Shown: piece by piece, positions 3,595 through 37,113 of the stretch
Layout of the letters: each line of letters opens with the position of its first letter
Numbering within the stretch: position 1 is the first letter of the stretch
Source of the DNA: Astropecten irregularis
Taxonomy: Eukaryota; Echinodermata; Asteroidea; Paxillosida; Astropectinidae
DNA length: 64,000 bases
Direction: 5' to 3'
Assembly: GCA_963971285.1 (NCBI GenBank)
Contig: OZ020252.1
Span: 19,691,662-19,755,661, forward strand
Made by a program: the position numbers and the translations under genes
The notes under the pieces: model-generated
Database searches by the model: none
Seen by the model: only the letters and a program-made list of their open reading frames with translations
Told to the model about the DNA's origin: nothing

Positions 3595-6500
3595 ATGTCC
3601 GTGTGGAATCGGCCAACTTCCTGTTTGTGTGCAGTGCTAAGCATCTTGATCCTTCTTAGCAAATCTGGAGAGGGTAAGTAGAAAACTTTCCATCTATACG
3701 ACAAAACTTTCTTTTGCGTGCATGCGGATGAATATACCTTAAGTAGTGAAACGCGTGAGCTGTCGTTGTTTTCATGTTTGCCTTTGAAGGTATAATACAT
3801 GATTGGTAAAGGTCAGAGAAAAGCACTCACACTCTGTCTGATCCAACATGTACATGAAATGTATAATTGAGTTTAATTGGACACCTGAGTCACGAGTAAA
3901 TAGCGAAAACCCTACTAAACTTTTCTTATAAACATGAAGAATGGTTTTGATCTTACCCCGAGATCAAAACTGTTTTCGGTCTTTGTTTGCGTAGTTTCTG
4001 AATAAATACACCATTTCAGGTGGAAATATTTTAACAGTATGTTTCTACCAGCACCATCTTCATATCCTGAAAGTTATACATAAATCTGTAAACATTTCTG
4101 TTTGGGTATGTTACCAATCCTGTACTGTACATTTTAGTCATTGAAAGTTGCGGTTCGCTTTTAGTAAAAGGATGGCCTGGCGTTTCGATCCAGCAGGATC
4201 AGACTCTCGATTCAAAAGGTCTAAGCATTTACTTTATCTAAGGCCATTATTTCGGTTGATTGGCAAGTTTGCAGCAGCAGGGTATGCCTATATATGTAGT
4301 AGTGGATTGGTTTTATTTGTCTCTTCCAGGTAATGCTCGCATATCGAATGAAGATGATGACGTTGATGACTTTATCAGCGAGATGACTGGTATTGGTGAG
4401 TACTCATTTTTGATAATACACCCAAAGTGTGCCGTCTGTACCTTTCCTCAATTCTGACAACCTGGCATTCAAACCAGCCATTCAACAGACTCACACACAA
4501 AAGTAATGAAAAAATTGCAAGATCAACTTTCAGCTAGCTGTTGATAAAGTATATACGGTAGGGCCTTTACGCCCTAGAAGGCTCGGCTTGGGAATTATTT
4601 ACCTAGCACCATTTTTGTGTCCTGAATGAAATGAAGTGAAGGGCTTGAGATACATGGCGAAGCTGGAGCCTTTCTTCGGCTTCGTAATGTTTGTGGCCAA
4701 ATACCTTTGTTTTGTGGGCCTCAAATAGCGGGAGAAAAGTACATTACAAGTCTAGCCTCAAGTCTGGTTTAGTATTGAGGTCCACAAATTTGTTACATGT
4801 TTTGTTTGTGTTTGTGATTGTTTTTTGTTAGACAATAATGGTTCCCGAACAAGACTGTTAAGGTTTATGATAGCTTACCCAATGAAATGATCGCATGGTT
4901 TGGCTTCTGACTTCCAAACGAACAAAGATAATTGACTAATTGACTACCACCAACGTAGGGCTCGATAGCTCAGTTGGTAGAGTGTCTGTACGGTGTTCAG
5001 GAGGTCGCCGGTTCGAAGGACGTTGCAGCCAATTTTTCTTTGTTCATACATGTATATAGATTGTTTCCGTATTGAGAGTGATCGGTCATCTGAGTAAAAA
5101 AAAATCCGTGCAAAATCGTATAGCTTGTTCAACTGTATCAGGCCAATACCATTTCTGCCAAACAATGTATTTTGTACTTTGCGACGGGCACATTTTGGGC
5201 CTCGCAGTCGTGTACGTGTCCGGTCGCAAACAACGTACATGCCGCGATTTTGTAATCGGTTTTCATATTTTCTTTGCATTTTTTTCCACTCGGAGCAAAT
5301 TTGTAGAGGCCTACCAATCGCCTTTATGATGTTGATGCAAATGACGTGAATTGTTATTCTTGCCTTTCTCTTTGAATAATATACCGAATTTGTTTCATTG
5401 ACAGGTGCTGGAAGTACCAAGCATGGCCCCAAGAGAGATATGAAACCCTTCCCCAAGATAGTTCGAGACAATGGGATGTTCCACTTCGTTCTCAAAGGTG
5501 AGATACTCAGCAGATATTAAATTTAAATGGGTTTCTTTTATTGTTGTGAAATGGTTGAGTCAGGTTGGCGTAATGGTTCCTTCCTTGCCTTTCACCTCTG
5601 GCGGACCGTGAGGTTCAAGTCCGGCTTGGACATCCACAAGTGGATTTGGTTTCCAGTCCCTACCGGATTCTGTGGGTTTTACCCAGGATATTACTCTTGG
5701 GTTTTCCTCCCACCTCTAAAACTGTATCTTCTTCTCATCATCTCTCTATAAAAGGTTTCATCAGGCTAGAGCGCTTTTGAGGATTCCTTGGTTTCATTAA
5801 CAGAAATAAATAAATAAATAAATAAATAAATACTTTTTTTTTACTTTTCAAAGTATAACTTTATTTGGAAATCCTCAAACATGACAAAAACATATAAACA
5901 AATATATACAGAAGTGGGAAGATAAGAGGGTAATATGATTTATATGGAATATACATATGCCTGTCATTCGTATCGCGCTATTGAGAAAATTGCTTATGCC
6001 ACATTGCTTATCTTATATGGAATATTGTATTTTGGGCTCCTTTCGGTAAGGACTATGAAATATAAGATTATAGATTTTATACCGGTATAATCAATGCATC
6101 ATTGAATGGACGGAACTCGGCAAAATGTAACCAATACCAATATCAGCAAGAACTATGTAGTCCATGAAATTTTCATGCGAGTGGAAAAGTTCATTCACCC
6201 CAGTAAAAAAATTGACCGAGTTTGTGGAAGAAGCATTTGTAATTCTGTTCGAATTTTGTTCAAATTTGGAAGATATTGCACATTTTTCCGAGTGTCTGCC
6301 CAAAGATAGAAAGAAAAAAGTGGATGATTTCAGTATACCAGCCTGCTTCGCACAACTAATATAATTTTGGACAACACCAACATAAGAACTTGATGGCTCA
6401 GTAAGTAGAGAGCCAGTAAGGTATTCCGGGGTATTTGTACATCCTTTCAAGGGACTCGGTTTTTTTTTTTCATTCTGCCAGATATCGCCGCTGAGCTGGT

Positions 6501-8401
6501 CAAACTCCTGGAGGAGGAAGGCGTGACACTGAACACACGTCAACGGGACCTCATCCACGACAAGATCGAGAGCATCTACCAGAGGAGCTTGGATCATCCA
6601 GCCTTGGAGAGTGACCTGATCGCCTTTGAGCCCAAGAAGCCAGACTTTCACCAATACACTCCGGACTCTGTACTGGTAACCCACGCACAAGAGCAGAGGG
6701 TGAGTCTTCATTGTCAATGCTCATAAATTATAAACCTTCTCTAACCTGAATAATGAAAAGATACAAAATCTGGGGTCGATTTCACGAAGCGCTGCGATCC
6801 ATCGTAGCTCGAGTTACGAAGGATAACCCATCGTAGGGGGCCTATCCCACGTAGGGCTGCGATGCATCAAAAGTCTTTGATAGTGGGTTACGAAGAGTTT
6901 GGTGAAACCGACAACTGAGCTGTTATGGCTTTTTTTCCATTAAAATGTCAATTTCCATTATTTTGGAATATCACATTGATGCCACTTGACAAATGATGCA
7001 GAAAACCAACCAAGGCAAATGGAGTTTAGGGTGACACGCAATGAATTGTTGCTGATTTCCTGTGATTAAAACATTCAAATAGACGTGTGTTCTGGAATCT
7101 AGGATTGTGAGCAAACGATTTACCTCAACCCAATTGCAATTATTTACCGGTATTAAATGTATATCAATGACATTTTCAGCGCAGACGAAAAAACAAGAAA
7201 TAAATGCTGGATAAAAATAACTTTTATGTCCCTGGTTTGAAAACACATTGTATAGGCGAAGCGAGTGAACGGCGGTCCGTACATCGAGGTATGCGAGAGC
7301 GACTTGGTGTGGGATACCATGCCTTTTGCAAGGATGCTGAACCACACCAGGGCCAAGGTATTCAGGGGTTTCCAGTTCCACATGAAGCAGTGTACCGCGG
7401 CCAGCGAGGGACGAAGCTGTCCGGGCATCGACTCAGGGTAAGGAATTCAACAATTATTAATATTTACAGGGAATGGGCCATTGTGGAGACCTTCTCATTG
7501 CGTCATGCACAAACGTTACTTATATGTACCTATTTCTAAACATCCTCCAAACCAACGAACTTAAAATTGACATATGTTCATATTGACCGCATTCTCTGTC
7601 TTATATTAAAATATGGACACTTAAAACATGGCTTTAAAAGGTAGCTGGTATAATAGGGAGACACCGAAAAGTCCTACCGAAAAATGCTCTACCTATTGTC
7701 ACTGATAGGCCATGGTTAGCGCTGAGTGACGACATATGAACTTGCCGACCATGATACACTGCGAACCAAAGCAGCAAGTTGTATGGTTTTAAGACAATAA
7801 GCTGCCAGGATTGTTTAATCTCAGTATACCATTTTTTAATTTTTTTGGTGGGGGGGGGGGGCATTTACGAAACGGAGGCTTAGGCTCCGTCTCAGGCTCT
7901 GGCTCCATTTTCATGAATCCATTCTGAAATAACGAGCATCAAAATAGAATCCTTTGGCTTCATTCGGAAGTAGATTCTCTGGTTTGAAAAGGAAAACAGA
8001 GCTTCAGCTTCAATGAAAAACCACACCCTTTATTTTCAGTGTAATTATGAATGTCAGAGTTGGAGCCTGAGCCCGAGCCTAAGCCTCCGTTTCGTAAATC
8101 CTCTATAGCAGGGTATCTAGCAAGGGCTAAAAAACCTAAAGAAACACCACATACACAGTATAAGCAAGTGACTTATGACTTTGGTCGCATCTGTTATTAT
8201 TCCCTACACAGCCTGAGATCCGAGTGCCAGACCACTGGGACCTGGGTGCGAGCGTTGGTGTGCGGTCGGTGTAACTTCGCCCAGGACAGGACGTGCAACC
8301 ATCACTGCCCTTCCAACCGACGGGATTTCTACGACTGGGAATGGGTCTACACCCCTACCTGCTGCAAGTGTGCCTACGAAGCCGATCTCCTCTTCAACTG
8401 A
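3595..8401 (+). CDS. Neurotrophin/Spätzle-like secreted ligand, gene 1 (six exons, 275 aa)
   Basis: Exons 3595-3673, 4330-4395, 5405-5497, 6482-6699, 7256-7437 and 8212-8401, all with GT-AG borders and matching phases (1,1,1,0,2). Residues 1-26 form a signal peptide with a leucine-rich core. Exon 2 is acidic (EDDDVDD). The prodomain carries I-A-F-x3-K-P at 126-133, and K154-R155 is a dibasic convertase site. The mature part has cysteines at 165, 198, 207, 218, 263 and 266, which match the six neurotrophin knot cysteines. C-P-G-I-D (207-211) and C-Q-T-T-x3-V-R-A-L (218-228) resemble the vertebrate neurotrophin signature. It adds C264 next to C263 and a C-x2-C-x7-C-x3-C insertion at 230-245. 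Expected role: a secreted, probably dimeric ligand for Trk/p75-type or Toll-type receptors; the receptor cannot be told from sequence. It is the most divergent of three tandem paralogues. Trunk/PTTH or noggin membership was considered; the neurotrophin pattern fits better. Confidence 0.85.
3783..4136. repeat. Inverted-repeat element, family G copy in intron 1 of gene 1
   Basis: Starts AAGGTATAATACATGATTGG and ends CCAATCCTGTACTGTAC. The interior has the family words ACTCACACTCTG, GCGAAAACCCTACT and GATCTTACCCCGAGATC. About 350 bp, non-coding. Further copies are listed across the window. Confidence 0.75.
4170..4201 (-). repeat. Penelope-like / hammerhead-like motif fragment, intron 1 of gene 1
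   Basis: On the minus strand this reads GATCCTGCTGGATCGAAACG followed by CCAGGCC: a GATCC hairpin followed by GAAACG. The same word occurs at 27445-27490, 36695-36815 and 63820-63950. The arrangement (stem, CGAAAC, GNGTC) resembles the small ribozyme motif of Penelope-like retroelements; the assignment is tentative. Confidence 0.4.
4561..4771. repeat. Foldback repeat, family E copy 2, intron 2 of gene 1
   Basis: GGGCCTTTACGCCC..GGCTCGGCTTGG at the left and TCTAGCCTCAAGTCTGG at the right, with ATACATGGCGAAGCTGGAGCC and GGGCCTCAAA inside. Same family as 387-606 and 12663-12858. Confidence 0.6.
4957..5036 (+). repeat. tRNA-derived SINE head in intron 2 of gene 1
   Basis: Contains a tRNA A box (TAGCTCAGTTGGTAGAG) and B box (GGTTCGAAGG) at pol III promoter spacing, but the flanking bases do not form an acceptor stem. 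It is therefore a SINE head, not a tRNA gene. Similar heads occur at 6381, 16048, 27660, 35316, 55167 and 57853. Confidence 0.65.
5555..5832 (+). repeat. tRNA-type SINE with AAATA tail, intron 3 of gene 1
   Basis: A tRNA-like head (GGTTGGCGTAATGGTT, then GAGGTTCAAGTCC) is followed by a body rich in GGGTTTTACCC and CCTCCCACCTC, then CTTCTTCTCATCATCTCTC and a tail of about six AAAT units ending near 5831. Head, body and A-rich simple-repeat tail are the SINE layout. Confidence 0.7.
6381..6465 (+). repeat. Degenerate tRNA-headed SINE fragment
   Basis: CTTGATGGCTCAGTAAGTAGAG is a decayed A box, and the later GGTATTCCGGGG part resembles the head at 57853. It ends about 20 bp before exon 4 of gene 1, close to its polypyrimidine tract. 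Confidence 0.45.
6772..6912. repeat. Hairpin MITE, family B copy 3, intron 4 of gene 1
   Basis: GGGGTCGATTTCACGAAGCG at the left and GTTTGGTGAAACCGAC at the right, with CTCGAGTTACGAAGGATAAC inside. Lies in the intron just before the mature-domain exons. Confidence 0.75.
7862..8101. repeat. Palindromic element, family D copy 1, last intron of gene 1
   Basis: Left end ATTTACGAAACGGAGGCTTA, right end CCTCCGTTTCGTAAATCC. The arms contain repeated GGCTC/GAGCC words (GCTCCGTCTCAGGCTCTGGC against GAGCCTGAGCCCGAGCC). Ends about 110 bp before the last exon of gene 1. Related copies: 30743-30970, 42359-42590 and a partial one at 57972-58140. Confidence 0.75.
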
Positions 8402-8628
8402 TTCCATGAATACCTATCGTAGAGAGGTCATTTATTATACCACAAAGAGAGTCTTTGATGTTCACACTAAATTAACATGACCCGTCCCTTCCCCCTTAAA
8501 ACAATCATTGGTTTTGTTTTTATTTCATTGTGTCAATTTTGTTGTTGTTGATGATGCTAATGATGATGATAACGTGTTTTGTTGACGTTCTTCCACTACC
8601 TTTATGAAAGTTGATGAACACTTTTACA

Positions 8629-8634
8629 ATTAAA
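8629..8634 (+). terminator. Possible poly(A) signal of gene 1
   Basis: ATTAAA lies 228 bp after the stop codon at 8399-8401 in AT-rich sequence. No AATAAA is seen closer. Inferred from the variant hexamer and position only. Confidence 0.35.
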
Positions 8635-9982
8635 TCAAACATCTTCGATTAATTCTCTACTTTCAGAATATGCAAACAAAATGATCCATGGCTAAAATGA
8701 TCCGCTTTTCAGGAAATCCCCTTTTATCGAAATCGATAACTTATGACGTGATATGAACTTTCCTCAATGCGAGGTGTTCCTGTTTACTTCGAAGCATTCT
8801 GGATTGTTTCCCAAATGTCATATCATCTTTCTGAAGTTTCCGTCTTTCTAGGAATGCAGGGATTATTCCGGACTTGCAGTCATGCTTCTAGGAAGTGCGG
8901 AAGGTCTATTTAACATTACAAATATTCAGCGAGGAACTGTAAACAGGAACTTAAACGACCGCCCATAGGCAAGTGCGTACTTTGTGCTAGGATGAATGGC
9001 TTTGATTAAGGGGGGTTCACATGGAACACGCAAACGCAAGCGAACGATTTGCGATGGATGGATGTCGAAAAAATTGCAACGTCCAACAGTTGCATTTTAT
9101 GCGTCGTCGATTGTTCGCGGTCGTCGTTTTTCGTTCGGCGGGAATTTCAAGTAAATTTGAAATTTCTTGCGAACGTTTCCCGCATTCCGGGTCGTGTTTT
9201 ATCGCGATTATTTTGTTATCACAAAATGTTTTGTCACTTCCAATCACCGCGTGTTTTAAAACGTCTGTGTCGTAAAGTATATTGTATCATAGAGTGTTTA
9301 TATAATATGTCGACATATATATTGCAAAATTAATAATCAACACGGTCCTTTGTGTCAGTCTAAGCACTTACAACTAATCTTACGATACATTCAGAAAACT
9401 TATCTTTGCAAAATTCGGGGAATAACAAAGCCTGTCTATTAACCAAATAAGTAAGTCTTTGATCTTTTAAAGTCAGGCATATTTGTTCGTAATTTTACAA
9501 AACTTTCCTTTAAAAGCACTACGGATTCAATTTGGAGGTTCAAAACGCGTAGTTCTATTGCGCGGTATCAAGGAACACTTGACACGCAGGACAGACACAG
9601 GGAGGGAATACTTCCACCATAATTCTCTTCGAGAAGTATTTATGTTGTGCTTTGAGATGTATCGCATTGCTCAACCACGGCTCTGAGCCTGAATCGAATC
9701 TTTGATAACACCACACTTCACCGCTGAGAGACTGTTGTTGCACTGAATGACATTATAGGCCTATATCATGTATATTATGCATAGCTCGAAAAGCCACACT
9801 GATTTTATTGCATAAAAATTGAGATTGATCCGAAGATAAATATTGTTCAGTAATGATATACGACTTATGTTTGAAACTTACAAAGTCGGACATTATCCAG
9901 GGCAGCATAAAAACAACTTATGGAATCATTTATATTACATGAGTTCTTCGGTGCTGCAGTTAAGCCTAGTTAGCCTTGTAAT
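8635..9982. other. Intergenic DNA between genes 1 and 2, first part
   Basis: No gene recognised. The stretch 9010-9260 is locally CpG-rich (many TCG and CGA words), unlike its surroundings, but short ORFs there lack motifs and splice context. Confidence 0.5.
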
Positions 9983-10350: not shown

Positions 10351-10374
10351 TGATGTGTATATAAATAATGTAGA

Positions 10375-10632: not shown

Positions 10633-10659
10633 CCTTTGCATAGAAAGAGAAAATGAAAT

Positions 10660-10901: not shown

Positions 10902-11050
10902 GGGGCCGATTTCACTAACGCTTTGCGATCATCGCTAAGCCCAAATCCATCGCTAAACAGAAAATTCCTACACAAAGTAGCGATCAATTTTCCGTTTAGC
11001 GATGGATTTGGGCTTAGCGATGATCGCAAAGCGTTAGTGAAATCGGTCCC
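10902..11050. repeat. Hairpin MITE, family A copy 2
   Basis: GGGGCCGATTTCACTAACGC at the left; TTAGTGAAATCGGTCCC at the right; arms CATCGCTAAGCCCAAATCC and GGATTTGGGCTTAGCGATG are nearly perfect reverse complements. Abuts a family C element. Confidence 0.85.
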
Positions 11051-16047: not shown

Positions 16048-16116
16048 AAGAGGAATTCGAGCCTGCGACTTCCCGAACAACATATCGGTGCTCTACCAAC
16101 TGAGCTATATCCAGCT
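16048..16116 (-). repeat. tRNA-headed SINE fragment
   Basis: On the minus strand: GGATATAGCTCAGTTGGTAG, then AGCACCGATATG and a B box CGCAGGCTCGAATTCC. Directly abuts the G element starting at 16117. Confidence 0.55.
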
Positions 16117-19426: not shown

Positions 19427-19434
19427 TATAAAAG
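19427..19434 (+). promoter_or_regulatory. TATA box of neurotrophin-like gene 2
   Basis: TATAAAAG lies 217 bp before the start codon at 19644, predicting transcription from about 19457 and a leader near 185 nt. Spacing is close to that of genes 1 and 3. Positional inference. Confidence 0.6.
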
Positions 19435-19643: not shown

Positions 19644-22600
19644 ATGTTGACTTTTCAAGCTGCCATGAAACTCCAATCAATGACTGTGTTAGTCATAACA
19701 TTATTAGGTAAGTCGTTTGTTTCACTCCGCTGATACTGCATACCTTTCAAGCGCATTTCCAACTTTTTTTTCCAAAAAATTCACTTTCACTTAGTCATCA
19801 AGATGAAACGGGAAAATTATTTGCTAAATTAAGCGCAAAAATTAAGGATTGTATGGTTGTTATTGGGTCCTATTTCTTCGCGGGTTGATATTACGACTAG
19901 GTCTATTCTTTCGTATCAGATTTAAAAGAACATGGCATTATTTCATCAAATAAATTGATAACTATTTTCTCTATTTACCAATAGAATAACTCATTCCTGC
20001 CGTAAGCGTACGGTACACTTGCCGCATACAACAATCTGTTACAACAATTTCATTATAAATGACCTACATCAACGTTCACATATCTGCAATACATGATGAA
20101 TAACCGAATGACATGGGTTCAACTGCTCATTAGCAAGAATTTTGAGCTAAATCTTTTTTCAAAATCGACACGAAATAATGGATGTGGACCGACCTTCTAT
20201 TCATTTTGAAAGCATTCTGCTCGTGTTGCGATTCATAGAATATTAGGTGAACATTTGAAGGAAATCTGTAAGCGGCGATCTTTCAAAGAATAATTATATT
20301 ATACACAATTAAACAAGACCACAAGTGGTCGCTATGACAGAGAAATTAGACATTTCTTAACATAAGACCGAAGACTCGATCTCGCAAATAGCCAAGATAG
20401 TCTTGAAATGCCCTTGCATTAATTCTACTGTTGCTACATAGAGCGTGATATTACCGTGAATGAATTTGGTATGACTATTTTTATGATCTGTAAGTGGAGA
20501 TTATGATTGTATGTGACTCCCCTGAACATAAATAGCAATGCAATTATAAAGTCCATCAGTTCTGATCAATCTTCGACAAGATTTAAATTTCACCTTTCAA
20601 ATTTCATAGTATTACCTTGGAGGAGGGCAATGCCAGTCTGACGTTCGGTTCGGTAGTTGTCCCTATTAAGTTGCCTTATAGTTTGAACATTGCCTCATGT
20701 GATACAGCCCTTAAGGGATCTGTGCTTCGTGCGTCACTATGCACGAAACGTCAATTTGCAGGGGTGTCATCACCATGTACATACCGCTGCCCGACGAATC
20801 AATTTTGTTCATTTATTTTCGAGATGCCTGTCATTTTAGGCATACCCACTTTTCATCAAAGCCATAACGTAAAAGCACCTCTTGGTGTATTATGTATATA
20901 ATATGCAGATATTTTAAAATTTCGCGGTTGATCTCCTAAAGTCAACCTTATAAATAGTAATCAACCATCTCCTCTTATAGTGAGTTATGTCTAAAAGCAA
21001 CGTACTCGATCTGATAGAGACACTTTTTCATAGCAAATGGTCACGCGTTATCAATCAAAATGGCTTTGAATTGGCGATTTGTTTCTGTCGGAGTAAAACA
21101 ATTTTGCATGATAAAAAAAAGTGTGAGTAAAACTGAGAAACGGTGAAATCTGAGATGAGTGTGTATCCATTAATTGCTGAAAGAGATACGTGGGGATGAC
21201 ATGTTTTAACATTGGCATCGAATTTTGAAACTTGGTGAATTAACCAAAATAGGTGAGCCAATGATTAAAGGTATCATGCAGTGTTAGACAATTAGGCTTT
21301 GCCATATAGAGCGCGGCGTTAATTTGCCAATACATTAATGAATCATTCAAAATGCTGACCAGTGATGGATTTCACAAAACACAGCGATTAATCTTAAAGA
21401 TATAACTTCATGCTTTGGTTTGTGTCCCAGAAATGCAGATTCATGGGCAAAATTGTCAAGACAGATATACAGTAACAGTCTTCTGTGAAATTCCCAGTAA
21501 CATAGTGCCTATGTTTTGAGAAAACGGTAAAAACGGTTATGGCATTTGCAAATCTTTTCACAGGAGTTTTGTTGTCCTTATTCGGGGGTAATTGATTTTA
21601 CCCTTTCTGGATAATAATAATAATAACATGCAATTATAGAGCGCTCTTACAAAGGTAAATTTCTTAACATTAAATAAATACTGGCACAAATGAAAAGATA
21701 AATAAAGCATTTCGGCCAGAAAGAAATTGACCAGTGCTGGGCAGAAAACCCGACTAGTCGACTTGTCGCGACTATGTTTCTACCATTAAAAATTATGCCC
21801 TGTAAGATATAGGCAAATAATGTGAATATTTCTGTTTTGGTATGCAACCAAAGAATGATAGCACTTTTATCTTGGAACTGCCAGTATCATCATGGTGATA
21901 TTGCGAGTTCACACTTAACACTTGACAGTTCGGATTGATTTATACATTAAAGGGATGGTACAGAATTGGTAAGACAAAATACACTTCAAGATCACAGATT
22001 CACATAAAACTTACACAGTATAATGGTGATGATAGGAGAAAACATCCCATGAAATGTTTTTGTCTGAAATGGCATATTCGTAAAAAAATAAATGAAACTA
22101 TTTTCCGATTGGAATAAATCGCTTCGAAGTGTTTTATTCATTCGTTAAAATTTGTAAATGGGTTTTCACTATTTTTCTCGTGACCCCGATGGCTGAATGA
22201 CCTCAAACTTCTACAGGTTTATCAGTTTAGGTATATGATGGATTACATAATGTGCTTTCACTGTCAGCAACGGATTTGTCGCAAAAACCAGTTTTGTACC
22301 ATCCCTTTAAGATGATAAGATTTGGTTCTATCTTAAATCGAAGCCAGACCACAAGACATCACTATTTGTTGCAGTGTATACTTTAATGTACATATTCCTG
22401 TATCTTATTACGGCTATGAGAACATGCCGCGGGCCACAATGAACTGTTCATTTCGGTCGACAGTTTCTGGTGTAACTGGCCAAATCTCAAAAACAAAAAT
22501 GTTTTATAAAATAAACGGAAGGGAGAACATAGAACTAAAGCTTTAAAGGCAGCGTACAGGATTTGCAAGGCCTTCAAAAGAATTATTGAGTTTGAAACAG

Positions 22601-25600
22601 AAAGTGGACTCAACAGTTCGTAAACAGTGCAAATAGTCACCATGGGAAATCCTATTTCATCAGATGCTGGGTTTTTCAAGGAAATCCAGATTTGGTGTCT
22701 AGTTTAATATGATCATTCGTCCGAATGATTTAGTAGCATTTCGAAAGTGTGGTGTTACCGTGAAGGATTCGGAGGGGGCAAAATTATTTCGGCCGTATTT
22801 CTGCTATCCAGATGAACAAAGCGTAAAATGTACATGAAACAACGTCTGCTTGTAAGGAAGTTTAAGACCTTCACTTCTGTTTAAGTACCAAATTCAGCCA
22901 AAACGCACATCTTTGCAAATCCCGTGATATGCTCCCTTTAAAGGTACAATACATGATTAGTAAAGGTCACAGGACAACACTCATACTTTGTATGATCAAA
23001 CATGTACATGAAACAATAAACCTGTGAAAATTTGAGCTCAATCGGACATCTGAGTCTCGAGAAAATAGCGAAAACCCGACTCATTTTTTCTTATACCCCG
23101 AGATCAAAACTGTTTTCGGTCTTTGTTTTGCGTATTTCTGTGGATAAATACAGCATTTCGGGTGCTAACTAAAACAACTAAGTGAGGGTGTCATTTATGT
23201 TTGTTCAAAATATCGTTCGGACGAACGATCTTTGGAAAAGACACTAATTCTTGATTTCCTTGAGAAACCCAGCATCTGATGAACCAAGATTTCCCATGGT
23301 GCCTGTTTGCACTGTTTACGAACTGTTGAGCCCACTTTCTGTCTCAAACTCAATATTTTATGAGGCTTTACAAATCCTATATTCCATTCATTATCTAATG
23401 CATAATAGCTGTCATGTGTAAGGATATTATCCACAACTTACTCTGCTTTCCTTGCGCTTATTTTTGCTGATACTCGGAAATGGTTAGTAAAGTGTACACG
23501 TCAAACCCCTCATTGACAGCGGTAAGATAACTCAGAGAACTTTTCAAAATAGGAGGGAAAAGAGTCATCAGCCTCAGCTTAAAATATCAACCGGGTGCGT
23601 AATCGTGCGTCATTGAAGTCAGGTGTTGATTTAAATGTCTCCTTCAGGATTTCACATGACTACATCACGGCTCGGTACTCCTTATACCGGTTGAACGCAC
23701 AGCCTGACGAGTGCTGGACGTGAGCAGCGTGGTTGACTAGCTTCTCTTGAGAAGCTCTGTTCCACAAAGTGTTTAAATTTAGTGTCCATTAGCATTCGTC
23801 TCCCAAGTTGTTTTTCGAGTCCGAGGAAGATAGGATAAGCAAAAGTTGTTATCGTTTCCGCAATAACCAGCCCGTAGAGGGGCACTTGAACAATTTACTC
23901 GACAAGACTGTATTATTTGCGATTAAGGGTGATTCAGCTCAATCCAGTTATAAAGCAAATCTTACCGTGTCAATAACGCCCCCACCTCAAGGGAAACAAT
24001 TAAAGTATAGACTTCGAGATCTTGGTGTTTGTCATCCCTCAAATTGCTTTATACACTTGAGAAGTTAACCACAGTTAAATAACAGTTGATTTTTGTTTTA
24101 TGCAGCTCTGGTTTTGGCGAGGTACCCACATGCAAGAAACGATGCAGACCTCCAAATCAACAAAGGGGTAAGGGTGTTCTGTATCATTATGTGTTAAATT
24201 TATTTAGCTCTGACTACCAAACGTGAATTTGAAATATCCCTTTCTTTCACATGGAAAATGGACGTATAGGCATGATCGGTAACAAAGACTGCTTTCAAGC
24301 ACATTCGTTCTCCGAGTCTTGCTTATACAATATTTTGCTCAATAGCCACTCATTGCTTGCTGGTTTGGTTTGGTTTGGTTTGGTTTGGTTTGGTTTGGTT
24401 TGGTTTGGTTTGGTTTGGTTTGGTTTGGTTTGGTTTGGTTTGGTTTGGTTTGGTTTGGTTTGGTTTGGTTTGGTTTGGTTTGGTTTAGTTTGGTTTGGTT
24501 TGGTTTGGTTTGGTTTGGTTTGGATCGAATTGTGGTCAAAAAGCAATGGATTTTAAAGATTCTTGAAACTTTAATACGAGTGTTCTTGGGTGTTTTTTTT
24601 CCACTTGTTACACGTTATATAGTTATTTTTCTCAACATCAAAAAATGTGTTGTTTCTTTTTACAGTCACAGCAAAATGATGAGCCTGATCAAGTCCGTAA
24701 ATTCCTGGACATTCTGCGAATACCTCTGAGGCAGCGCCCCTTCCCTCCTGATATGCCGTCATTTTATGACTACCTGGATATGCCCTCCATGGAAGGAGCA
24801 AACGCCCACAGGATTGCATTTTCTTCCTCCAAACCAAGTTATTCACCAGCTGTGGAAATCCCTCCGATGGCAAGGGATAGAAGATCACTACCGTATCCCT
24901 TTTATAAGGTAGGCTTACTTATGCTCCTCGATTTCACCAAACTCTTCGTAACTTACAATCAATCGTAGGACTTTTGATTCATTGAAGCCCTACGTGGGAT
25001 ATGTCCCCTGCGATGGGTTATCCTTCGTAACTAGAGTTACGATCGATCAAAAGGGCTTCGTGAAATCGGCATATGGACTGATAACGTAACCTGGTACCGT
25101 TTGAACGCTTGGTGGCAGCAAACAGCTTTTTCTCGCTGCTCACATCTATTTTGAATGGGCCAAAGTTGGAATCATCCAAAGTTCAGCATTATTTAAGAGA
25201 CATTTCAGGTTTATAATTTCAACTTCAGAAACAAAATCCAAATTCTAAAAAAAAAAAATCAAAAACGCCTTTTTCTCTTTCAAGAGGTACTGACTTCATG
25301 CCTCGTGTGGCTAATTTTCGAATGTCGTGCATGATTGTGCTTTATAGAAATCATTTGCCGACTCGGAGGAGACCCTACGGGCTTGCCCGGCGCACAGCGA
25401 GTGGAAGCAGATTGAAAGTGCCACCACTCTGGAGAACGAGGAGGTCATTATCGGAACACGGCAGTGGTTCTGGCAAACGACATGCTTGGACGAGAACGCT
25501 AGCTGCTACGGCTTCGTGCAAACGCCCCACATGACGTCCAGCTGTAGACCCGTCTTCTCATGGGTCGTTGCATGGGCACGGCCGGTGGGGGTCGTCAACT

Positions 25601-25665
25601 ACACGTGGCGTTTCATCGCACTGAAAACGTGCTGCTCGTGCGCTGTTAGTTTGACCTCACGTTAA
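19644..25665 (+). CDS. Neurotrophin/Spätzle-like secreted ligand, gene 2 (four exons, 228 aa)
   Basis: Exons 19644-19707, 24106-24167, 24666-24908 and 25348-25665; phases 1,0,0 are consistent and every junction is GT-AG. Residues 1-34 form a signal peptide with core MTVLVITLLALVLA; Met8 is an alternative start. The prodomain (about 36-123) includes FLDIL, I-A-F-x3-K-P at 92-99, R-D-R-R at 112-115 and K123-K124 at the last junction. The cystine-knot domain is one exon, with cysteines 136, 169, 176, 189, 218, 219 and 221. Q-W-F-W-Q-T-T-C and Y-T-W-R-F-I-x4-C-C-x-C match the neurotrophin/Spätzle pattern. N-A-S and N-Y-T are glycosylation sequons. Expected role: secreted, proteolytically processed growth factor; the seventh cysteine could bridge a dimer, as known in Spätzle. 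The first intron is 4.4 kb and filled with repeats. It aligns with gene 3 along its length, including the prodomain. Receptor unknown. Confidence 0.88.
19708..21395. other. First part of the long intron 1 of gene 2
   Basis: AT-rich sequence with no recognised exon; phases of the flanking exons (1 to 1) need none. At 21361-21395 a fragment ATGGATTTCACAAAACACAG with GATTAATCTTA resembles the left end of the hairpin element at 54148-54295 and is cut by the G element that follows. Confidence 0.5.
21396..21873. repeat. Family G variant interrupted by a further insertion, intron 1 of gene 2
   Basis: The G words CAGATTCATGGGC, CAAGACAGATATACAGTAACAG and TTCTACCATTA flank an extra segment at about 21612-21770 containing ATAATAATAATAAC and AGAGCGCTC. 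The copy is longer than the usual 340-370 bp for that reason. Confidence 0.6.
21947..22311. repeat. Inverted-repeat element related to family G, intron 1 of gene 2
   Basis: Left end AAAGGGATGGTACAGAATTG, right end CAGTTTTGTACCATCCCTTT. The interior retains TCACAGATTCAC and TTTTCTCGTGACCCCGAT, as in G elements, so this is a sub-family with distinct ends. Confidence 0.65.
22541..22938. repeat. Family H repeat, copy 1, intron 1 of gene 2
   Basis: Begins TTTAAAGGCAGCGTACAGGA and ends GATATGCTCCCTTTAAAGG. Internal words are GTGGACTCAACAGTTCGTAA, CATCAGATGCTGGGTTTTTC and TTTCGGCCGTATTTCTGCTA. A second copy is at 44344-44728 and an inverted piece at 23196-23385. Confidence 0.65.
22939..23170. repeat. 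Family G element, truncated, abutting family H
   Basis: AAAGGTACAATACATGATTA, then CTGAGTCTCGAGAAAATAGC and CGAGATCAAAACTGTTTTCG. It stops after ATACAGCATTTCGGG, missing its other arm. Confidence 0.6.
23196..23385 (-). repeat. Family H repeat, inverted fragment
   Basis: GAAACCCAGCATCTGATGAA, CTGTTTACGAACTGTTGAGC and CCACTTTCTGTCTCAAACTC are reverse complements of the H element at 22541-22938, so two H copies lie in opposite orientation within 850 bp. Confidence 0.6.
24361..24523 (+). repeat. Pentanucleotide microsatellite (TGGTT)n, intron 2 of gene 2
   Basis: About 32 nearly perfect 5 bp units with one visible variant (TTTAG in place of TTTGG near 24486). All six frames stay open here, so ORFs reading W-F-G-L-V or P-N-Q-T-K repeats are artefacts. 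Lies between exons 2 and 3 of gene 2. Confidence 0.95.
24926..25070. repeat. Hairpin MITE, family B copy 4, intron 3 of gene 2
   Basis: CTCGATTTCACCAAACTCTT at the left and GGGCTTCGTGAAATCGGC at the right, with AACTAGAGTTACGATCGATC inside. It begins about 18 bp after the exon 3 donor of gene 2. Confidence 0.7.
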
Positions 25666-25719
25666 TTTTCCCGCCAAAATTAACAAACGAACAAACCAGA
25701 AAACGCCCCTATTTGACAA

Positions 25720-27735: not shown

Positions 27736-28313
27736 TGAAACCACTCACATTATCGCTGGATCTCAAGAATCATTACGCGCAGCATTGCAATGCTGCAATT
27801 AACCGTGAGAAGAGGAGTGAGAATCACTCAAAGAGGATATACTGTATCATAATTGATACATTATGTCAAGGTAATCAATATGATATAAATTTGAACTTCC
27901 ACAAAACCGCAGAATCACACAACGTTATTCAATGTCGTCTCAAAATACCGACTTTCACCAATAAAAGTTTAGGTTAAGTTTCAGGAATTGCATTGAACAG
28001 TATTAATCGAGATTGAGATGTTAACAGCATGAGCAATGGTCTACTGCTTCACCTTAATACATTTTCACGACTGAACATCGGCAGCAAGAACCGACCTTCA
28101 AGAAGCGGTACCCAAACTCCTATTGATACCAAAGTGGGAAGAAGTGTGGCGCGTAGGTGATGGGTGAGTTGGGTTGGAGACTATGACTGTAGTCATCAGT
28201 ACAGTCAACATACCAGTCAGTCAGGTGATTTTGCGTCGATGGTAAGGTGATAGGGATTGGTGGGGGAAGTGTTTAGTAAGTGGTGAGGGATGCTCATGGG
28301 ATTTTATGTCATT

Positions 28314-28335
28314 CACACACACACACACACACCCA
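28314..28335 (+). repeat. (CA)n microsatellite
   Basis: About ten CA units with one CC interruption. Intergenic. Confidence 0.9.
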
Positions 28336-29642
28336 CACAAAGGGGAAAGTTGATGTTCAGTTTTGGAATTGTGGTACGAATATTGTACTTTACTATCTAA
28401 ATCCGTATGAAAGATCAGTTCGGCGACGTGAAATCTACCATTCCTATACCCACAATGTACAAAGCTGCCTTCTGTGGCAAAGCACACACACCACTTCCAT
28501 ACAAAGCCTGCTGTGTGTAGGAAATACGCATGGTGTCCATAGACGAGTACATTATAATTTTACTAAGCACCTATCTAGGCCTATTGGATAACCATTAATG
28601 GTTTTTGATTATTCATACCCTGTGCTGCATAAAAACGATATCACATTGGGGAGCTGTAGGTGGAAGGTACCTATACCGACTGGACGCTTTTTAAAGCCCT
28701 TTTGGTTCCATGGCTCGATTTACAATAATTCAAAATCTTATCATTTTATGAAAGGCGCCCTCTAGTGTTTGAAAAACGAAAGTAATCATAGTTGTGAAAC
28801 TGATGAATAATACCAACGCGCACGTGGTATCATACAAACGCTCAGGGACGTTAGATTGGATCGCCAGAGCTGTGTACAAAAATTGAATACCAAAATGTAC
28901 TACAATAAATCGATGCCTTTTAAGAAAAGGTCTTTTCCTTCTCTCGATTATTAATCTTTGACCGATACCGAATCAAATTGACGACCCACAAAAAACTGAG
29001 GCTTGTTAAAAACAAACCCACACTCTTCAAGCCTGATTTCGTTTTTCACAGAGGCCAAGGTGAGCACAAATTGTAGCTGGCATTTCGTTCGTATCTGTGC
29101 CTGTTTACAAAAGACGCCCTTGAGACTTTCTTAGATCTGATAAGTGACGAAGGAAGGGGGGGCTGACTCTTGAAAGATAGGGAATCGTGGATCTTGTTTA
29201 CACTCGCCCCCTGACAAGTGTACGTGGAGTATTCATCCACGACACTTGGAGAAAAACATTGCCATTGTTTGAAGAGTTGTTGTAGTGATTGTGAAGATGC
29301 GGCGTGTGGTAGGCCTACTTTACTTTGCTACAAACAACATTGAACATTCCGAGCCCAACTAACATCGACAATTCCAGATAATGCTGCACATCGTCATTCA
29401 TAAAATATGTATATTGTATTATTGTATTCGTGCCAGCAATTTGCAGCCCGAAGGACTGTGCCATTAGCGACCTTTCCACACCGCCTGGAGTATGAATAAG
29501 TCAGTTGAGTGTCAAATCGGATTTCGCATTAGACTTAACCGTGTGTAATAGGTCAAGGCAAGTTGTATACGATATGATATCTGTACGGAATGAGGTGAGA
29601 TAGCGTCTATGGATAGGGTGATCAGAAATCAATGACATCACG

Positions 29643-30742: not shown

Positions 30743-30970
30743 GTTAACGAAACGGAGGCTTAGGCTCACGCTCCAGCTCTGTCATCCATATGCTGAAAAT
30801 ATAGGTTGTGGTTTTTCATTGAAGCTGAAACTCTGTTTTCCTTTTCAAACTAGAGAATCTACTTCAGAACCGCAGCCAAAAGTCTTTATTTTGATATCGT
30901 TTATTTCATAATTTATTCACGAAATGGAGCCGGAGCCTGAGACGGAGCCTGAGCCTCCTTCGTAAACGCC
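30743..30970. repeat. Palindromic element, family D copy 2
   Basis: GTTAACGAAACGGAGGCTTA with GGCTCACGCTCCAGCTCTG at the left; GAGCCGGAGCCTGAGACGGA with GCCTCCTTCGTAAACGCCC at the right. Confidence 0.7.
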
Positions 30971-32792
30971 CTTACATTTAATGTAACCGGAAGCAAAAAT
31001 TATCAAGAAGAGATTGTATCCAGGCCTCTGTTATTGCTGATTTTTTTTTTTTTGTCTTTTGATGATTACTTAAGCAGTGAGTGTGCTAGGTTTTATTGAA
31101 CTTCACGATTTTGTTCTACAACAAATCTCGTTAATCATTATTATTATCATTTGTCACAATTTTATATAATGCCATTTTCACAAGTTTGCATTTCATTTTA
31201 CTGTTTAATGGGCCATTAGACAAATAATTATCTTTGTAGATTGTCTTAATTATTCATTTATATCACCCCATCATGAGGTTCATCGCATTCCAATATATTG
31301 GTATGGAATTTGCGCTTTATAAATGAATAAATCAGTATCATAATGTATATGACCTTTATTTCGTTAGCTAGCCCTGAACCAATCCCAGCAGGCCAAATTT
31401 AGCTTTTTAAAGGTATTTGTTCTTGGTCCGTTTTGGAACGGACGATGGCGAAAACTCAACACCACCCCCCACCGATTGGAGAGACGTGACTGCTGTATAA
31501 AGGTCAATCATCGTGTCCAATGATTATAAGCATACTGGCGATTTTTCCGAAGAGGTTTTACACGATATCAATTACTTTGAGAAATCCGAGTTGTGAAATT
31601 TGAGGAATTTAAAACAAATAATGTTTTAAACCCACACACAAGTTGAAGATGCACTTTTGTCAAGTATTGAGGTATATTATAGGCCCTACATACAAAAATA
31701 ATTTCATTGTTAATTTGTTAGTGTTCGCCCAAATACGTACCTTTAAGTGAATGGTGGAAAATCTCAAACCCCCCCCCCCCCCCCCCCCCCGGTACCTGTT
31801 TCGATAACATTTTATTTGCTCACTCGAACATTAGAAATAAGGTGTTCATGGTTATCAATAAATTATTGTAAAACAATTACATTTCGTCATTTGAAAATAA
31901 ATCATAGTGTTGACGTTCTTAGCCGTTCGTTTTTATTGATATTATATGTAACATCACATCCATGAGTTTTTATTCATCGAGTTAAAAATTTAATAATTTA
32001 ATAATTTAGAGTTAATAATTATATTTATTAGATTTATCTCATGAAGCACGAGTCTTGATCTTTCAAAGAAAGCCAACAATTAGTTTTATTTGACTTGTTT
32101 TATCTTGTTTTTTTACTTTAACAAAGGAACCACCACTTTTCTCGAGATTTAAACAAAATCATAATTTTAAGAAACAACAAAATAAATCAACAATAATGTC
32201 TGCAGGCTTACTGGATTCATGGTCACTCATAATGTAATAATTCAACAGCGGTGTCAAGCAGGTAATGCTGCTTAATTTTCATATTAGTCCTTGAGCTATA
32301 TAGAAACACAATCATGTTACCGCCAGTAAAGCTGTCGAGCGTTCTAGCAAGTGTCGCTCCTCGTTTTGCTCATTATACATTGGCTAATTACTTCTGCTTA
32401 TTGTAATTATTATTCGGCAATATTGTTTCGCATCTAACTATTTTAGTTCCACTGCTGTAATTGAGCGCGATATGAAGCAATGGTGTGGAAATTGAAGTAT
32501 GACGTCTTGGATTTGTCAATGAACAACACTTCCATCCAATTACGCCCCTGCACGTACATCGTCACGTAGTAGACTTGGCTCCTTTATGAGCATAATTTCT
32601 TCACGACAACCATGACGGCCAATGAATAATTCCACTGATTTTCATCGCGGGGCATTGTCTCCGCTATACGTCCTGTTTTGGTGTATTTTGTTCAAGTGTT
32701 TCCACGCCCACATTTTAGTCATTACTTTTTATATGTGAAAAAAGCCGTCATTCAGACCGTAATAATTGGAACCTAATACGCAAAATAACTGG
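30971..32792. other. Intergenic DNA upstream of gene 3
   Basis: AT-rich, with no exon supported. A run of 22 C bases lies at 31769-31790. The 500 bp before the TATA-like box contain GTACGTCGTCACGT-like words and ATGACGTC but no recognised element. Confidence 0.5.
31769..31790 (+). repeat. Poly-C run
   Basis: Twenty-two consecutive C bases; length is likely to be unreliable in sequencing. Confidence 0.9.
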
Positions 32793-32800
32793 CATAAATA
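32793..32800 (+). promoter_or_regulatory. TATA-like box of neurotrophin-like gene 3
   Basis: CATAAATA followed by CTGGGCAG lies 263 bp upstream of the start codon at 33056. It is a weaker match to TATA than those of genes 1 and 2, but the spacing is similar. Positional inference. Confidence 0.45.
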
Positions 32801-33055
32801 CTGGGCAGCTTTGTCAAGTGTATCCTGTCGATCTTAGGAACGGTACATGCAACACAACACCAGCGCTTGGTGATGCGCACAAGCAGAACCGGTACAATAT
32901 TACAGGCCGTTGTTTTCAGAGAGTAGGAGGACTACATGCTGCATACGACTGTCAGGCTCACTGTAAAACTCCAACAAGCGACTTCTATTCTGAAGTATTT
33001 GGGGATGATTAGCACGACTCTGGCGACACGTGTGTTTTCATTTGAGCATTTCAAG

Positions 33056-36000
33056 ATGCGCGCTCTCATCGGGAGAAACGTAGCCGTGCTCTTTGTGACA
33101 CTAATAGGCCTGGGTAAGTTCCAAAGCAGTTTGCAAATGTTTAACCGATAAAGTTTTATTTCTATGTTTTATTTTTATGTCTCCCCGTTGGTCGCTTATT
33201 CAATTACGCTTTCCATGAATACAATAATCGAACTGTGGGTTCGAATGAGAATTATGACCATTAATTCATGCTTTGTCACAGCCTGCGCCTGGCGGCCCTA
33301 CCTTTCCCATCAGGCCATCGGGGGTCTTCTGGCCGGTGGGAATACCCACACCCAGGACACCAGAGACCCCACTCCCACACCCCCTTTTCCCTCAACCACC
33401 CTCATTTTAGATAACTACCCCATCCCGTGTATTGCTTTTTCCTTGGTCATTTTGGTCTCCTCTTCGTGTGTTTTTGAGTGTCCATGGAATGACTGAGACA
33501 TGGGGTATACCTCCTATGTCTGCCAGGCTGGTACTCTTGAAATTAGTCCGGCTAAACGTACCCTTTGGTAACCTCTTTGCCTGTTTATGTTTTACTGCCT
33601 TGTTATCTTGTTATGCACCAAAATATACTCTCTATTCTCTCTTGTAAGTAACGTTTACCGCCGTCATATATTATTGCATGTATAACGCTTATTTTGGTCA
33701 CATCTGGATGATTGTTTGTCTTGTCATCCCTGTGCGTAACGGTTATCTGTCATCATGACGTCACGTTGATTTGTCTGGCCACAGTTGAATTGTCAGATCT
33801 TGTATATAACGTTTATCTCCGTCAAAACGTGATATATATCCAAAGTATTTTTTAAGTATTTAACGTAAAAATTCAGCTTTTTATGAATACATTTTCCCTC
33901 AATTTATCAATTGTATACGCATTGATTTTTGCTACACTTTTGTTGTTACTCTTTTTCTTTTTTCACGATTACCTCCCTTAACCTATGAGCTGATTTCCGT
34001 CTAAGCTTTTATTGAATATCAACAACTAATGGGTAGGTTTCTTACAATATCACAACAATTATACGATTATAATGCGTAAATTCCACATGGATTTTCAAAT
34101 TACAGCCATTGGGAAATAATCAAGTCATATTCGTTTTGCTACTCCTAATTTAAGCCATCCTGGCGAGTATTTAGACGGAATTGCGTTTTTGATATTGAAA
34201 TTACATAATTACATTTTTCTCCTTAATTTAGTTAATTTACCTTTCAAAGTGCAATACTGCGTGAGGTAATACGGTAGGAAATGGTGACATCCCAGAGTAG
34301 GGATGTTTCTCTTCTTAATGCAACTATGACAATTTACCCATATTACCAATCGACGATACTTATTTACGAGTGCCATGTTCTTCTCACAGTTATTCTTGGT
34401 AAAGCAACAGTGGAAACAGGGGACTCCCACCAAAACCCTGAGGTGAGAATTTTACAGACTGCACTTCAATGAAACATCTTATTTTATGAATAAATAGCGA
34501 TCAATTACAAAATGTGACATTTTGATTGGTTTTCAATAGTTAGATATAACGACTTCAATCAATTCAATAATGCACGTGATACAAGAGGCGGTAAACTGGT
34601 GGGTTTTTGACAACACGATTCTTCTTTTTCTTCTTCTACCCGAAGCCCTTTTTAGATATACTAGACATCCCACCAGAATTGAGGAGCCTTCCTGGAACGC
34701 CAAATATCTACGATCTTCTCTCCATTCTATCCATGGAACAGTCAGCCAACAACAGAATTTCCTTCTCAGCGGACAAGCCGAGGCATAACCCCGACCTGCC
34801 CCCCGAGAGATCTGCTGCCTGGACCGGCCACTCCTCGGAGTTTAGGACAGAACCGGCAATCTCAGTTCTAAAAGTGAGGAATGAAAGAGGGAATCTCTAA
34901 ATGCAAAAGAGTGAAAATGCCACTCGTTCAAAATTGAGTTGTTCTTCATACGGCTCTTGAAAAAGAGTGGTGGGTATTTCACTCTTTTGGAGTGGTTTTC
35001 ACTCTGGGCAAGAGAGAAAATCACTCAAAACGATGCAAACGTCAGTCTAAAAGAGTGGAAGACAACTCGAAAAAGAGTTGCCCCTCATTATGGCTCTTCA
35101 AACAGTGGCTTTTCATTCATTTGATTTTAGAGAGAATCGTATCTATTGTTGTGTTTACCAGTAGTCCCATCTTTGCTCGGGCTTAAAAATGGCAGTGATA
35201 CTTTAACAATATTCAATTGGATTGTATGCAATAGGTAATCTCAGTTGATAATTTGTTTGCATCCTATTTTATAACCATTACAAATAACGATTCTAACATG
35301 TCCTAAAAAAATCATCAAATAACCACAAGGGAAACTGACTGAAACTGCGCGACCTCCTAAATACTGTACAGGTGCTCTACCAACTGAGCCATCCAGTCCT
35401 ACGTTGGTGGTGACCCCAAAAGTCAACTATATTTGTTCGTCTTCCTAAAGAAGACAGAAAGTGGTACAAAAATAAATATCAGGGATACATCCAAGGGTCT
35501 TCCCAATGCCGCATCAACTATCTCAAGGAAAGAAAAATGGTATAGCTTTGTTCCTTGTAATACAAAACCTTTGTCTGCATGGAAAAGACGGTGGGGAAGG
35601 GTTCGGAAATAGGAAAGAAAGTGAGTGTTTTATTGTGGATTGTGGAAGAAATTTGCAAACTTCTTTAGGAAAAGTCTTCCGCATACTGGCATTTTATCAT
35701 TATTTCAAATCTCATCATTTTATTTTGCTTTCATTCAGAGAGATCAGAGTCCGCCCCTACGAGCTTGTCCCGTTCAGCACGAGTGGGTTAACATACAAAC
35801 AGCTACGGACATTTACAACACTGAGGTGAGGTCAAATCGTGTACTTCTGTAACGAAAAATTTCACACCAAATTAATGATGGACGAGCAATTATTGTCCGA
35901 GACAGAGAGGAGCAGGCCGGGGGCGAGGGGCAAAGACCTCGGGTTGAAAAATGAATCAAACCCCGGCTGTCTGCCTCCAAATCTCGCTGAATTGATTACT

Positions 36001-37113
36001 ATCAATCCTATACTTGCTTTCGTCAACAGTGATTTGGGGGGGGTCGGGCGGTGTTCTGATAGTGTCGATTCATTGATCATGTTATCGATAATTGATTAAA
36101 GATGATTCTACAGATCTCGCTTTGTTTCATATCATTATCATCATAATATATATACCGAGTTCTCAGCATTAGCGCTGCGCCAGTGCCGTGATTAAAAAAT
36201 GGGAAATTTGTTTATATTTTGAAAAATAATGTGTTGCTCGTTAACCAATCTACCTTTTGTCACATTTTGTGTCGCTGCAACCGATGCAGATTAAGGTTTA
36301 CCAAAATTAATTACGAAAAATGCGTCCAAGCCATACATTTACATATCCTCGGTCGCCTGAATTAATATACATCATTGAATAGGATCTCGAGTTGCTATAG
36401 ACGATGCATGTGCCCACAGGCGCGAATTTATATTCGGTATCACGATATTATAATCCACTTTTAGCTGCTCGATAGGTTGATATTTCTGAACCAGTTATTT
36501 TTCATTGGAAGTTTCATTTGAAACTCGATAATCCTGGCACTGCTGATCGAAAAATTGCATTAATTTTCAGCTTTTGAAATATTTTTTTTTTAAATTCAAA
36601 AGGGGAAAATTCATGACGCTTTGTAGCATCTTTGTTAATGATGGACTTAAACCTATCAAGTTAATACTATAAGAATATATACTAAAGCCTTTGAGAAAGA
36701 TCCTGCTAGGATCGAAACGCGTCAGGCCCTCCTAACTAAGCATTTGATATATTTCAGGTCATGTTGGCTGATGAGCAGTTTGCAGCAGTTTATTACTTGT
36801 ATTGTCTATAAGAATATAATTATCATATTGCACACACGATAGCTTTTTAAAACGCACGATGTGCTCGTTTAATTATCAGGTGGAAGTAAGTCAGTTGCAG
36901 TGGTTTTGGAAAACCACCTGTCTGCAGGCGAACCAGAGTTGCTACGGATTCAACCGGTCCGAGGAGAATAGCTCGACCACCGAGTGCCGAGAGACCAACT
37001 CGTGGGTGATGGCCTGGGCCAGGGAGATAGGTCTAGGAGATACTGACTACTCCTGGCGGCATATCGCAGTACCGGCATGCTGCTCTTGTGCAATCATCGA
37101 GGGGGAGGTATAA
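33056..37113 (+). CDS. Neurotrophin/Spätzle-like secreted ligand, gene 3 (five exons, 219 aa)
   Basis: Exons 33056-33113, 34390-34442, 34646-34873, 35739-35825 and 36880-37113; phases 1,0,0,0. Residues 1-22 form a signal peptide (core VAVLFVTLIGLVIL). Upstream in-frame ATGs at 32936 and 33002 exist, but only Met 33056 puts the hydrophobic core at the N terminus. The prodomain has FLDIL (39-43), I-S-F-x3-K-P (75-82) and a dibasic K113-R114 split exactly by an intron. The mature domain has cysteines 123, 156, 163, 178, 209, 210 and 212, with R-A-C-P, Q-W-F-W-K-T-T-C, S-C-Y-G-F and Y-S-W-R-H-I-x4-C-C-x-C. N-Q-S, N-R-S and N-S-S are sequons. It is the nearest paralogue of gene 2, differing by an extra intron inside the knot domain. 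Expected role: secreted, processed cystine-knot growth factor; receptor unknown. Confidence 0.87.
34876..35125 (+). repeat. Sequence rich in AAAGAGTG/CACTCTTT words, intron 3 of gene 3
   Basis: AAAAGAGTG, GAAAAAGAGTGGTGGG, TTTCACTCTTTTGG, TAAAAGAGTGGAAG and AAAAAGAGTTGCCCC recur in both orientations within 250 bp, starting right after the exon 3 donor. It looks like a small foldback repeat. Family not recognised. Confidence 0.45.
35316..35415 (-). repeat. tRNA-headed SINE, intron 3 of gene 3
   Basis: Minus strand: CTGGATGGCTCAGTTGGTAG, then AGCACCTGTACAGTATTTAG and GAGGTCGCGCAGTTTCAGTC. The A box is clear, the B box decayed. Flanked by CCAACGTAGG, as in the head at 4957. Confidence 0.6.
36695..36815 (+). 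repeat. Penelope-like / hammerhead-like fragment, intron 4 of gene 3
   Basis: GAGAAAGATCCTGCTAGGAT, then CGAAACGCGTCAGGCCCTCC, and 45 bp later GGCTGATGAGCAGTTTGCAG. The same order recurs at 63820-63950. CTGATGAG and GAAAC..GTC are the conserved hammerhead core words, here in permuted order. Ends about 65 bp before exon 5. Confidence 0.5.

Follow-up and report, generated by a model that had tools for sequence, protein, structure and literature searches.

Invertebrates are in general regarded as having one or two neurotrophins. According to Wilson 2009 (PMC2772990), the sea urchin has two: Sp-NT, which has one coding exon and is close to the chordate genes, and Sp-NT2, which has several exons and groups with two acorn worm expressed sequence tags nearer the protostome neurotrophins. 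In the same text the Sp-NT2 type is marked by an extra Cys next to the fifth Cys of the knot, by a Spätzle-like Pro and by Asn in place of Asp30. An eLife 2020 survey states that no additional neurotrophins were found. Here we examined a window of 64,000 bases from a sea star genome (contig C16, 19691662-19755661; C16 spans 21.5 Mb of a genome of 475.7 Mb in 168 contigs), in which three clustered genes, numbered 1 to 3, encode cystine-knot precursors. We conclude, with a probability of roughly 0.85, that genes 1-3 are multi-exon neurotrophin ligands of the NT2 type that have expanded in the sea star, so that with a fourth gene on the same contig, g4, four such genes stand beside one canonical neurotrophin. 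Positions without a contig name are those of the window.

Comparison with known neurotrophins

Genes 1-3 and g4 are like Sp-NT2, as far as the published text describes it, in having a multi-exon precursor (6, 4, 5 and at least 4 exons, respectively) beside a canonical single-exon neurotrophin. All four have, beside the fifth Cys of the knot, the additional Cys that marks Sp-NT2 and the acorn worm proteins NTa/NTb in that description. The other two marks are present in part: genes 1 and 3 have the Pro, and g4 alone has the Asn. The sea star genes differ from the described ones in their number, four with three in a cluster, in the missing Asn of genes 1-3 and in the four further Cys of gene 1. 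The fit to the NT2 type is thus good and not complete, and the resemblance is to Sp-NT2 as its published description gives it.

The canonical echinoderm neurotrophin Sp-NT, represented here by a gene at C16:1.69 Mb, has the knot with its six Cys, and its prodomain motif and knot are homologous to those of gene 1. It differs from genes 1-3 in its one coding exon, its longer loop between Cys I and Cys II and its lack of a seventh Cys. Compared with vertebrate NGF, BDNF, NT-3 and NT-4, gene 2 has 22-28% identity among the significant Foldseek rows, and the genes described here are distinguished by multiple exons, the extra Cys and replacement of Arg103. No report of such a cluster or expansion was found in the open-access PMC literature, judged from titles and the starts of abstracts among the matches listed. 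The new elements are the four multi-exon genes, three of them clustered, their likely pairing and the extra cysteines of gene 1; they extend a known family, apparently in a branch that has had little study, and do not found one.

Identity of the knot domains

A sequence-only reading of the window had proposed three complete plus-strand gene models. Rebuilding these from the raw sequence returned the same coordinates and lengths: gene 1 has 6 exons (3595-8401, 275 amino acids), gene 2 has 4 exons (19644-25665, 228 amino acids) and gene 3 has 5 exons (33056-37113, 219 amino acids). GT-AG borders occur at 12/12 introns, and the frames are open across all 15 exons.

The precursors had been assigned to a neurotrophin/Spätzle type. 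A profile built from the knots of genes 1-3 gave a significant neurotrophin match when searched against the PDB (NGF at 7.2e-8), and Spätzle was not listed for this profile at E ≤ 10. Against the Pfam NGF family (PF00243, cut-off 27 bits) the scores were 27.7 bits for gene 2, 21.5 for gene 3, 10.4 for gene 1 (E 0.76), 33.0 for g4 and 82.6 for the canonical gene. An NCBIfam scan of gene 1 returned no match. Structure prediction was examined for gene 2. An AlphaFold model of its knot from an eight-row alignment, which superseded a three-row model, reached a predicted local distance difference test (pLDDT) score of 86.3, and 35/35 Foldseek matches to the PDB at E ≤ 0.001 were neurotrophins. By sequence and by the predicted fold of gene 2, these results favor genes 1-3 being neurotrophins rather than Spätzle proteins. 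The neurotrophin half of the earlier assignment is therefore retained, while Spätzle was the weaker match in every listing that contained both.

The seventh Cys of these proteins is as in Spätzle, genes 1 and 3 have the Spätzle-like Pro, and Spätzle is the next fold after the neurotrophins, at rank 37 in the Foldseek search, all of which would suit deuterostome Spätzle proteins acting as Toll ligands. Weak matches to the Pfam Spaetzle family (PF16077, cut-off 27) also point in this direction (gene 3, 16.6 bits, E 0.013; g4, E 2.2e-4); genes 1 and 2 were not listed for it at E ≤ 10. We consider such an identity for genes 1-3 very unlikely, since neurotrophin profiles, PDB sequences and folds score higher wherever both families are listed and Spätzle is missing at E ≤ 10 from the matches to the profile of genes 1-3. 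The sequence match to Spätzle (Drosophila C-106, Aedes Spz1C) is much weaker, the best in the PDB profile search being 0.086.

A place in a different knot family (Trunk/PTTH or noggin, for example) was also weighed. Trunk is reported from hemichordates, and a cluster map relates it to PTTH and noggin, as given in PMC6660194. For genes 1-3, however, Pfam lists only NGF and Spaetzle at E ≤ 10, the presence of a Trunk model in Pfam being unconfirmed, and the significant fold matches of gene 2 were neurotrophins without exception. No Trunk or PTTH chain stood among the VIA-align rows, which proves nothing. Altogether, a family of this kind is extremely improbable.

Cysteines of the mature proteins

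The knot had been described as having six cysteines. Six are indeed the conserved core, and they align in 5/5 proteins (genes 1-3, g4 and the canonical gene), their order and spacing being those of neurotrophins, but the mature parts contain 7 Cys in genes 2 and 3 and 11 in gene 1. The seventh Cys adjoins Cys V (TCC or ACC) in 4/4 multi-exon genes, whereas the canonical gene has Ser (TSCNC vs TCCxC). In gene 1 the stretch that separates Cys IV from Cys V contains an in-frame insertion, CGRCNFAQDRTCNHHCPSNRR (about 8261-8323), which holds the four further Cys; inspection by eye revealed no GT-AG intron that would remove it. Alignment places the Spätzle-like Pro in genes 1 and 3 and shows it absent in gene 2 and g4. 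The Asp30 site is occupied by Met, Thr and Asp in genes 1, 2 and 3, respectively, and g4 alone has Asn.

Relationships among the genes

The genome search scored the best candidates only, exon by exon, making the count of neurotrophin genes a lower bound. For the NGF family, 7 candidates were scored and 2 kept, gene 2 and C16:1693907-1694221 (84.8 bits). The open frame of the latter holds a whole canonical neurotrophin precursor in a single coding exon. With gene 1 as the query, five rows were returned: three from exons of gene 1 itself, one from the canonical gene (E 1.65) and one at C16:16.7 Mb (E 0.2). This weak match is a real fourth multi-exon gene, g4, which lies 3 Mb from the cluster on the minus strand and has at least 4 exons (C16:16700546-16700641, 16700094-16700314, 16698613-16698791 and 16697990-16698119). 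When g4 was the query, the six rows comprised two of its own exons, gene 2 (9e-8), gene 3 (4e-5), gene 1 (0.17) and one noise row. The six rows of the gene 3 query were two from gene 3, one from gene 2 and three of noise, with E above 2.5. All five neurotrophin genes are on one contig. A row on contig C21 (E 2.5) was dropped as noise after inspection. A reverse-strand match at 28069-28116 (FGYRFLKVGSCCRCSV, E 0.21) was tried as a knot exon and is treated as chance; its frame is short, and no partner exon was seen in 27900-28700.

Pairwise alignments were scored as z against 1000 shuffles. The alignment of genes 2 and 3 starts at the leader and extends to the last Cys (score 381, z 67, 0/1000 shuffles; 46% identity over 194 aligned codons), and their prodomains alone give z 18, which bears out the proposal that the two align through both prodomain and knot. 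Gene 1 had been called more divergent, and so it is, with full-length z of 11.1 and 9.9 against genes 2 and 3 that are still significant. Its knot matches that of gene 2 at z 6.4 (1/1000 shuffles as good), and the two prodomains are marginal (z 3.0, 12/1000 shuffles). Against the canonical neurotrophin gene 1 scores z 19.4, and z 7.2 with the prodomain alone (0/1000 shuffles).

The best match of gene 1 is g4. They have 39% identity over 190 codons, and the prodomain exons and three intron positions and phases are common to both. When all of the modelled g4 sequence is aligned, it has a score of 308 with gene 1, 159 with gene 2, 147 with gene 3 and 104 with the canonical gene. With the knot only, the corresponding scores are 127, 134, 131 and 85. 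Because the g4 knot is roughly as distant from gene 1 as from genes 2 and 3, the link between gene 1 and g4 rests on the prodomain and the introns. These comparisons suggest that the multi-exon genes likely form two pairs, gene 1 with g4 and gene 2 with gene 3, and that a single local triplication is probably too simple an account of the cluster. A local expansion had been put forward; genes 2 and 3 do form a local pair, but the best match of gene 1 is g4, 3 Mb away.

Substitutions at codon positions 1, 2 and 3 number 95/60/127 between genes 2 and 3 and 85/78/125 between gene 1 and g4. The third-position excess in both pairs suggests coding sequence under constraint. This excess bears on whether the genes are neurotrophin-derived duplicates that no longer signal, having decayed or being unexpressed. 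That the models rest on DNA alone would allow for this, as would the very divergent gene 1 (branch 4.4) and the lack of a full furin site in gene 3. We nevertheless regard loss of signaling as quite unlikely, since besides the third-position excess the reading frames and splice borders are intact throughout and every knot cysteine is kept.

Several observations count against genes 1-3 being NT2-type neurotrophins. Genes 1 and 3 fall below the curated NGF cut-off, gene 1 alone being without Pfam significance. The three-row structure model was poor (pLDDT 54.5), and Foldseek gave nothing for it at E ≤ 0.001, although the first 22 of its 62 matches were all neurotrophins. The prodomains of gene 1 and gene 3 (z -0.5), gene 2 and the canonical gene (z 0.3), and gene 3 and the canonical gene (z 0.6) do not match significantly. 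A tree of eight knots, which does not include Sp-NT2, leaves 4/5 inner branches unresolved and gives gene 1 a branch of 4.4. Gene 3 has a dibasic KR and no full furin site. Finally, with neither the Pro nor the Asn mark in gene 2 and with the canonical Asp in gene 3, orthology to Sp-NT2 is not proven.

Receptors and proposed mode of action

If genes 1-3 are NT2-type neurotrophin ligands, each precursor would enter the secretory pathway by its hydrophobic leader, which was judged by eye in all three genes. Proprotein convertases would then remove the prodomain. Clear candidate sites are present in gene 1 (RAKR), gene 2 (RDRR) and g4 (LKKRR), and gene 3 has KR only. The mature knots may dimerize, and the seventh Cys may then join the two chains through a disulfide, as it does in Spätzle. 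Such dimers may act on Trk, p75NTR or both.

The genome contains loci for both receptors. The Trk locus is at C21:1596122-1598915, where the kinase exons, once joined by eye, gave 1.3e-122 for human TrkB vs 5e-87 for MuSK. The top row of the Trk genome search, C17:193013 (E 4.2e-86, 50% identity), was rejected as Trk because a PDB search identified its kinase as ROR (ROR1, 9.1e-121); the second row was at C17:14.4 Mb. PF16920 (LRRCT_2, 45 positions), which we take to represent the Trk LRR/Ig region, gave one genome row, below the cut-off (19.4 bits, E 0.64). The p75NTR locus at C16:17413000-17419000 combines TNFR cysteine-rich repeats, a p75NTR transmembrane domain (46.4 bits) and a Death domain. 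It shares its contig with all five neurotrophin genes, with g4 (16.70 Mb) on one side of it and the cluster (19.70 Mb) on the other.

The sequence-only reading had asked which receptors, Trk, p75 or Toll, such ligands use. The presence of Trk and p75NTR loci in the genome is all that narrows this question. NGF Arg103 is a TrkA hot spot. In the alignment this residue is Tyr in gene 1, Ala in genes 2 and 3, Lys in g4 and Thr in the canonical gene. Because Arg103 is replaced in all five, the canonical gene included, the sequence does not tell which ligand uses which receptor.

A bolder proposal is that sea stars evolved a second neurotrophin system of covalently linked NT2 dimers, in which the eleven-Cys knot of gene 1 would carry an extra four-cysteine module in the loop before Cys V. 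Receptor use would have shifted, perhaps so that p75NTR alone or a Toll-type receptor is engaged, and would bridge neurotrophin and Spätzle signaling in one deuterostome. We hold this to be rather unlikely. With at least five neurotrophins, four of them Spätzle-marked, and with Trk and p75NTR loci, the sea star makes use of Trk, p75NTR or Toll by this branch testable. Receptor use of the NT2 branch bears on how neurotrophin and Spätzle signaling separated. Arms and nerve cords regrow in sea stars, a process in which neurotrophic ligands would be important. The linkage of p75NTR with five neurotrophin genes on C16 is of interest across other echinoderms.

Exon structure

All exons of genes 1-3 are on the plus strand. 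Gene 1 begins with an ATG and a putative signal peptide, recognized by eye as a hydrophobic leader, in exon 1 (3595-3673), which ends in phase 1 at the donor gtaagtag. Exon 2 (4330-4395; acceptor ttccag, donor gtgagt) starts the acidic prodomain. The prodomain continues in exon 3 (5405-5497), which encodes RDNGMFHFVLK (QDNGMLHLVLH in g4), and in exon 4 (6482-6699), where a LIAFEPKKPDF motif is common to g4 and resembles SDLVVFSPVKP of the canonical neurotrophin. Exon 5 (7256-7437) completes the RAKR cleavage site, encodes knot Cys I-III and ends in phase 2. Exon 6 (8212-8401) holds knot Cys IV-VI, the extra Cys beside Cys V, the four-Cys in-frame insertion and the stop.

Gene 2 exon 1 (19644-19707), a hydrophobic leader, is provisional and the weakest exon of the models, separated from exon 2 (24106-24167) by a 4.4-kb intron. 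In the 15 kb upstream in gene 2, a scan for signal exons found 2 candidates in the sense direction and 0 in reverse, with 1 in total over 20 shuffles; the whole window gave 7 forward and 1 reverse. The other candidate for exon 1, ending at 19434, has a methionine-rich leader and is unlikely. The sequence thus makes the exon 1 assignment plausible. Exon 3 (24666-24908) carries prodomain with the HRIAFSSSKP motif and the RDRR cleavage site (about 24873-24884). Exon 4 (25348-25665), which gave both the NGF score and the fold model, encodes the whole seven-Cys knot and the stop. A long (TTTGG)n array lies in intron 2 (24363-24530).

Gene 3 consists of a hydrophobic leader, judged by eye, in exon 1 (33056-33113), exon 2 (34390-34442), prodomain with the motif NRISFSADKP in exon 3 (34646-34873), the dibasic KR at the junction and knot Cys I in exon 4 (35739-35825), and knot Cys II-VI with the extra Cys, the Pro preceding it and the stop in exon 5 (36880-37113). 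A diverged array of a 10-base repeat lies about 1 kb beyond gene 3 (about 38169-38469).

Host and neighboring sequences

Clustered cystine-knot precursors of the neurotrophin/Spätzle superfamily had been attributed to an invertebrate deuterostome. The echinoderm mitochondrial code found on contig C168 (16,335 bases) agrees with this, and clustered precursors in such a host suggest several parallel ligands in one animal. Of six codes tried, 9 and 14 yield FSTNHKDIG and IYNVIVTAHA in COX1 on C168, and 2, 5, 13 and 24 do not; its AAA codons stand at sites that we take to be conserved Asn. Flatworms also read AAA as Asn, but Trk, p75NTR and the gene family speak against a flatworm host. A transfer RNA (tRNA) for Lys on the contig has the anticodon CTT. 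The tRNA order is I-, L-, G-, Y-, D+, M-, V+, C-, W-, A+, L-, N-, Q+, P-, COX1, which would be the inverted arrangement that sea stars have; the host is probably a member of that group. Another COX1-like gene (C131:32162-33484) has 552 amino acids without stop codons vs 10 TGA in the mitochondrial copy, and C131 is possibly a bacterial contig in the assembly. A further copy, at C25:9951047 with 7 TGA, resembles mitochondrial DNA that was copied into the nuclear genome.

Within the window, tRNA-like repeats occur at 16049 and 55182, and ARAGORN found no tRNA gene in the window. Downstream of gene 3, on the minus strand, is an NXPE-family gene (46186-46986) with an NXPE4 C-terminal domain (236.7 bits), and open reading frames up to 49713 on the same strand may be further exons of it. 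Repeats with matching ends (TAAAGCCCAAATCCATCGCT), similar to miniature inverted-repeat transposable elements, lie at 10903-11049, 40755-40901 and 48157-48239.

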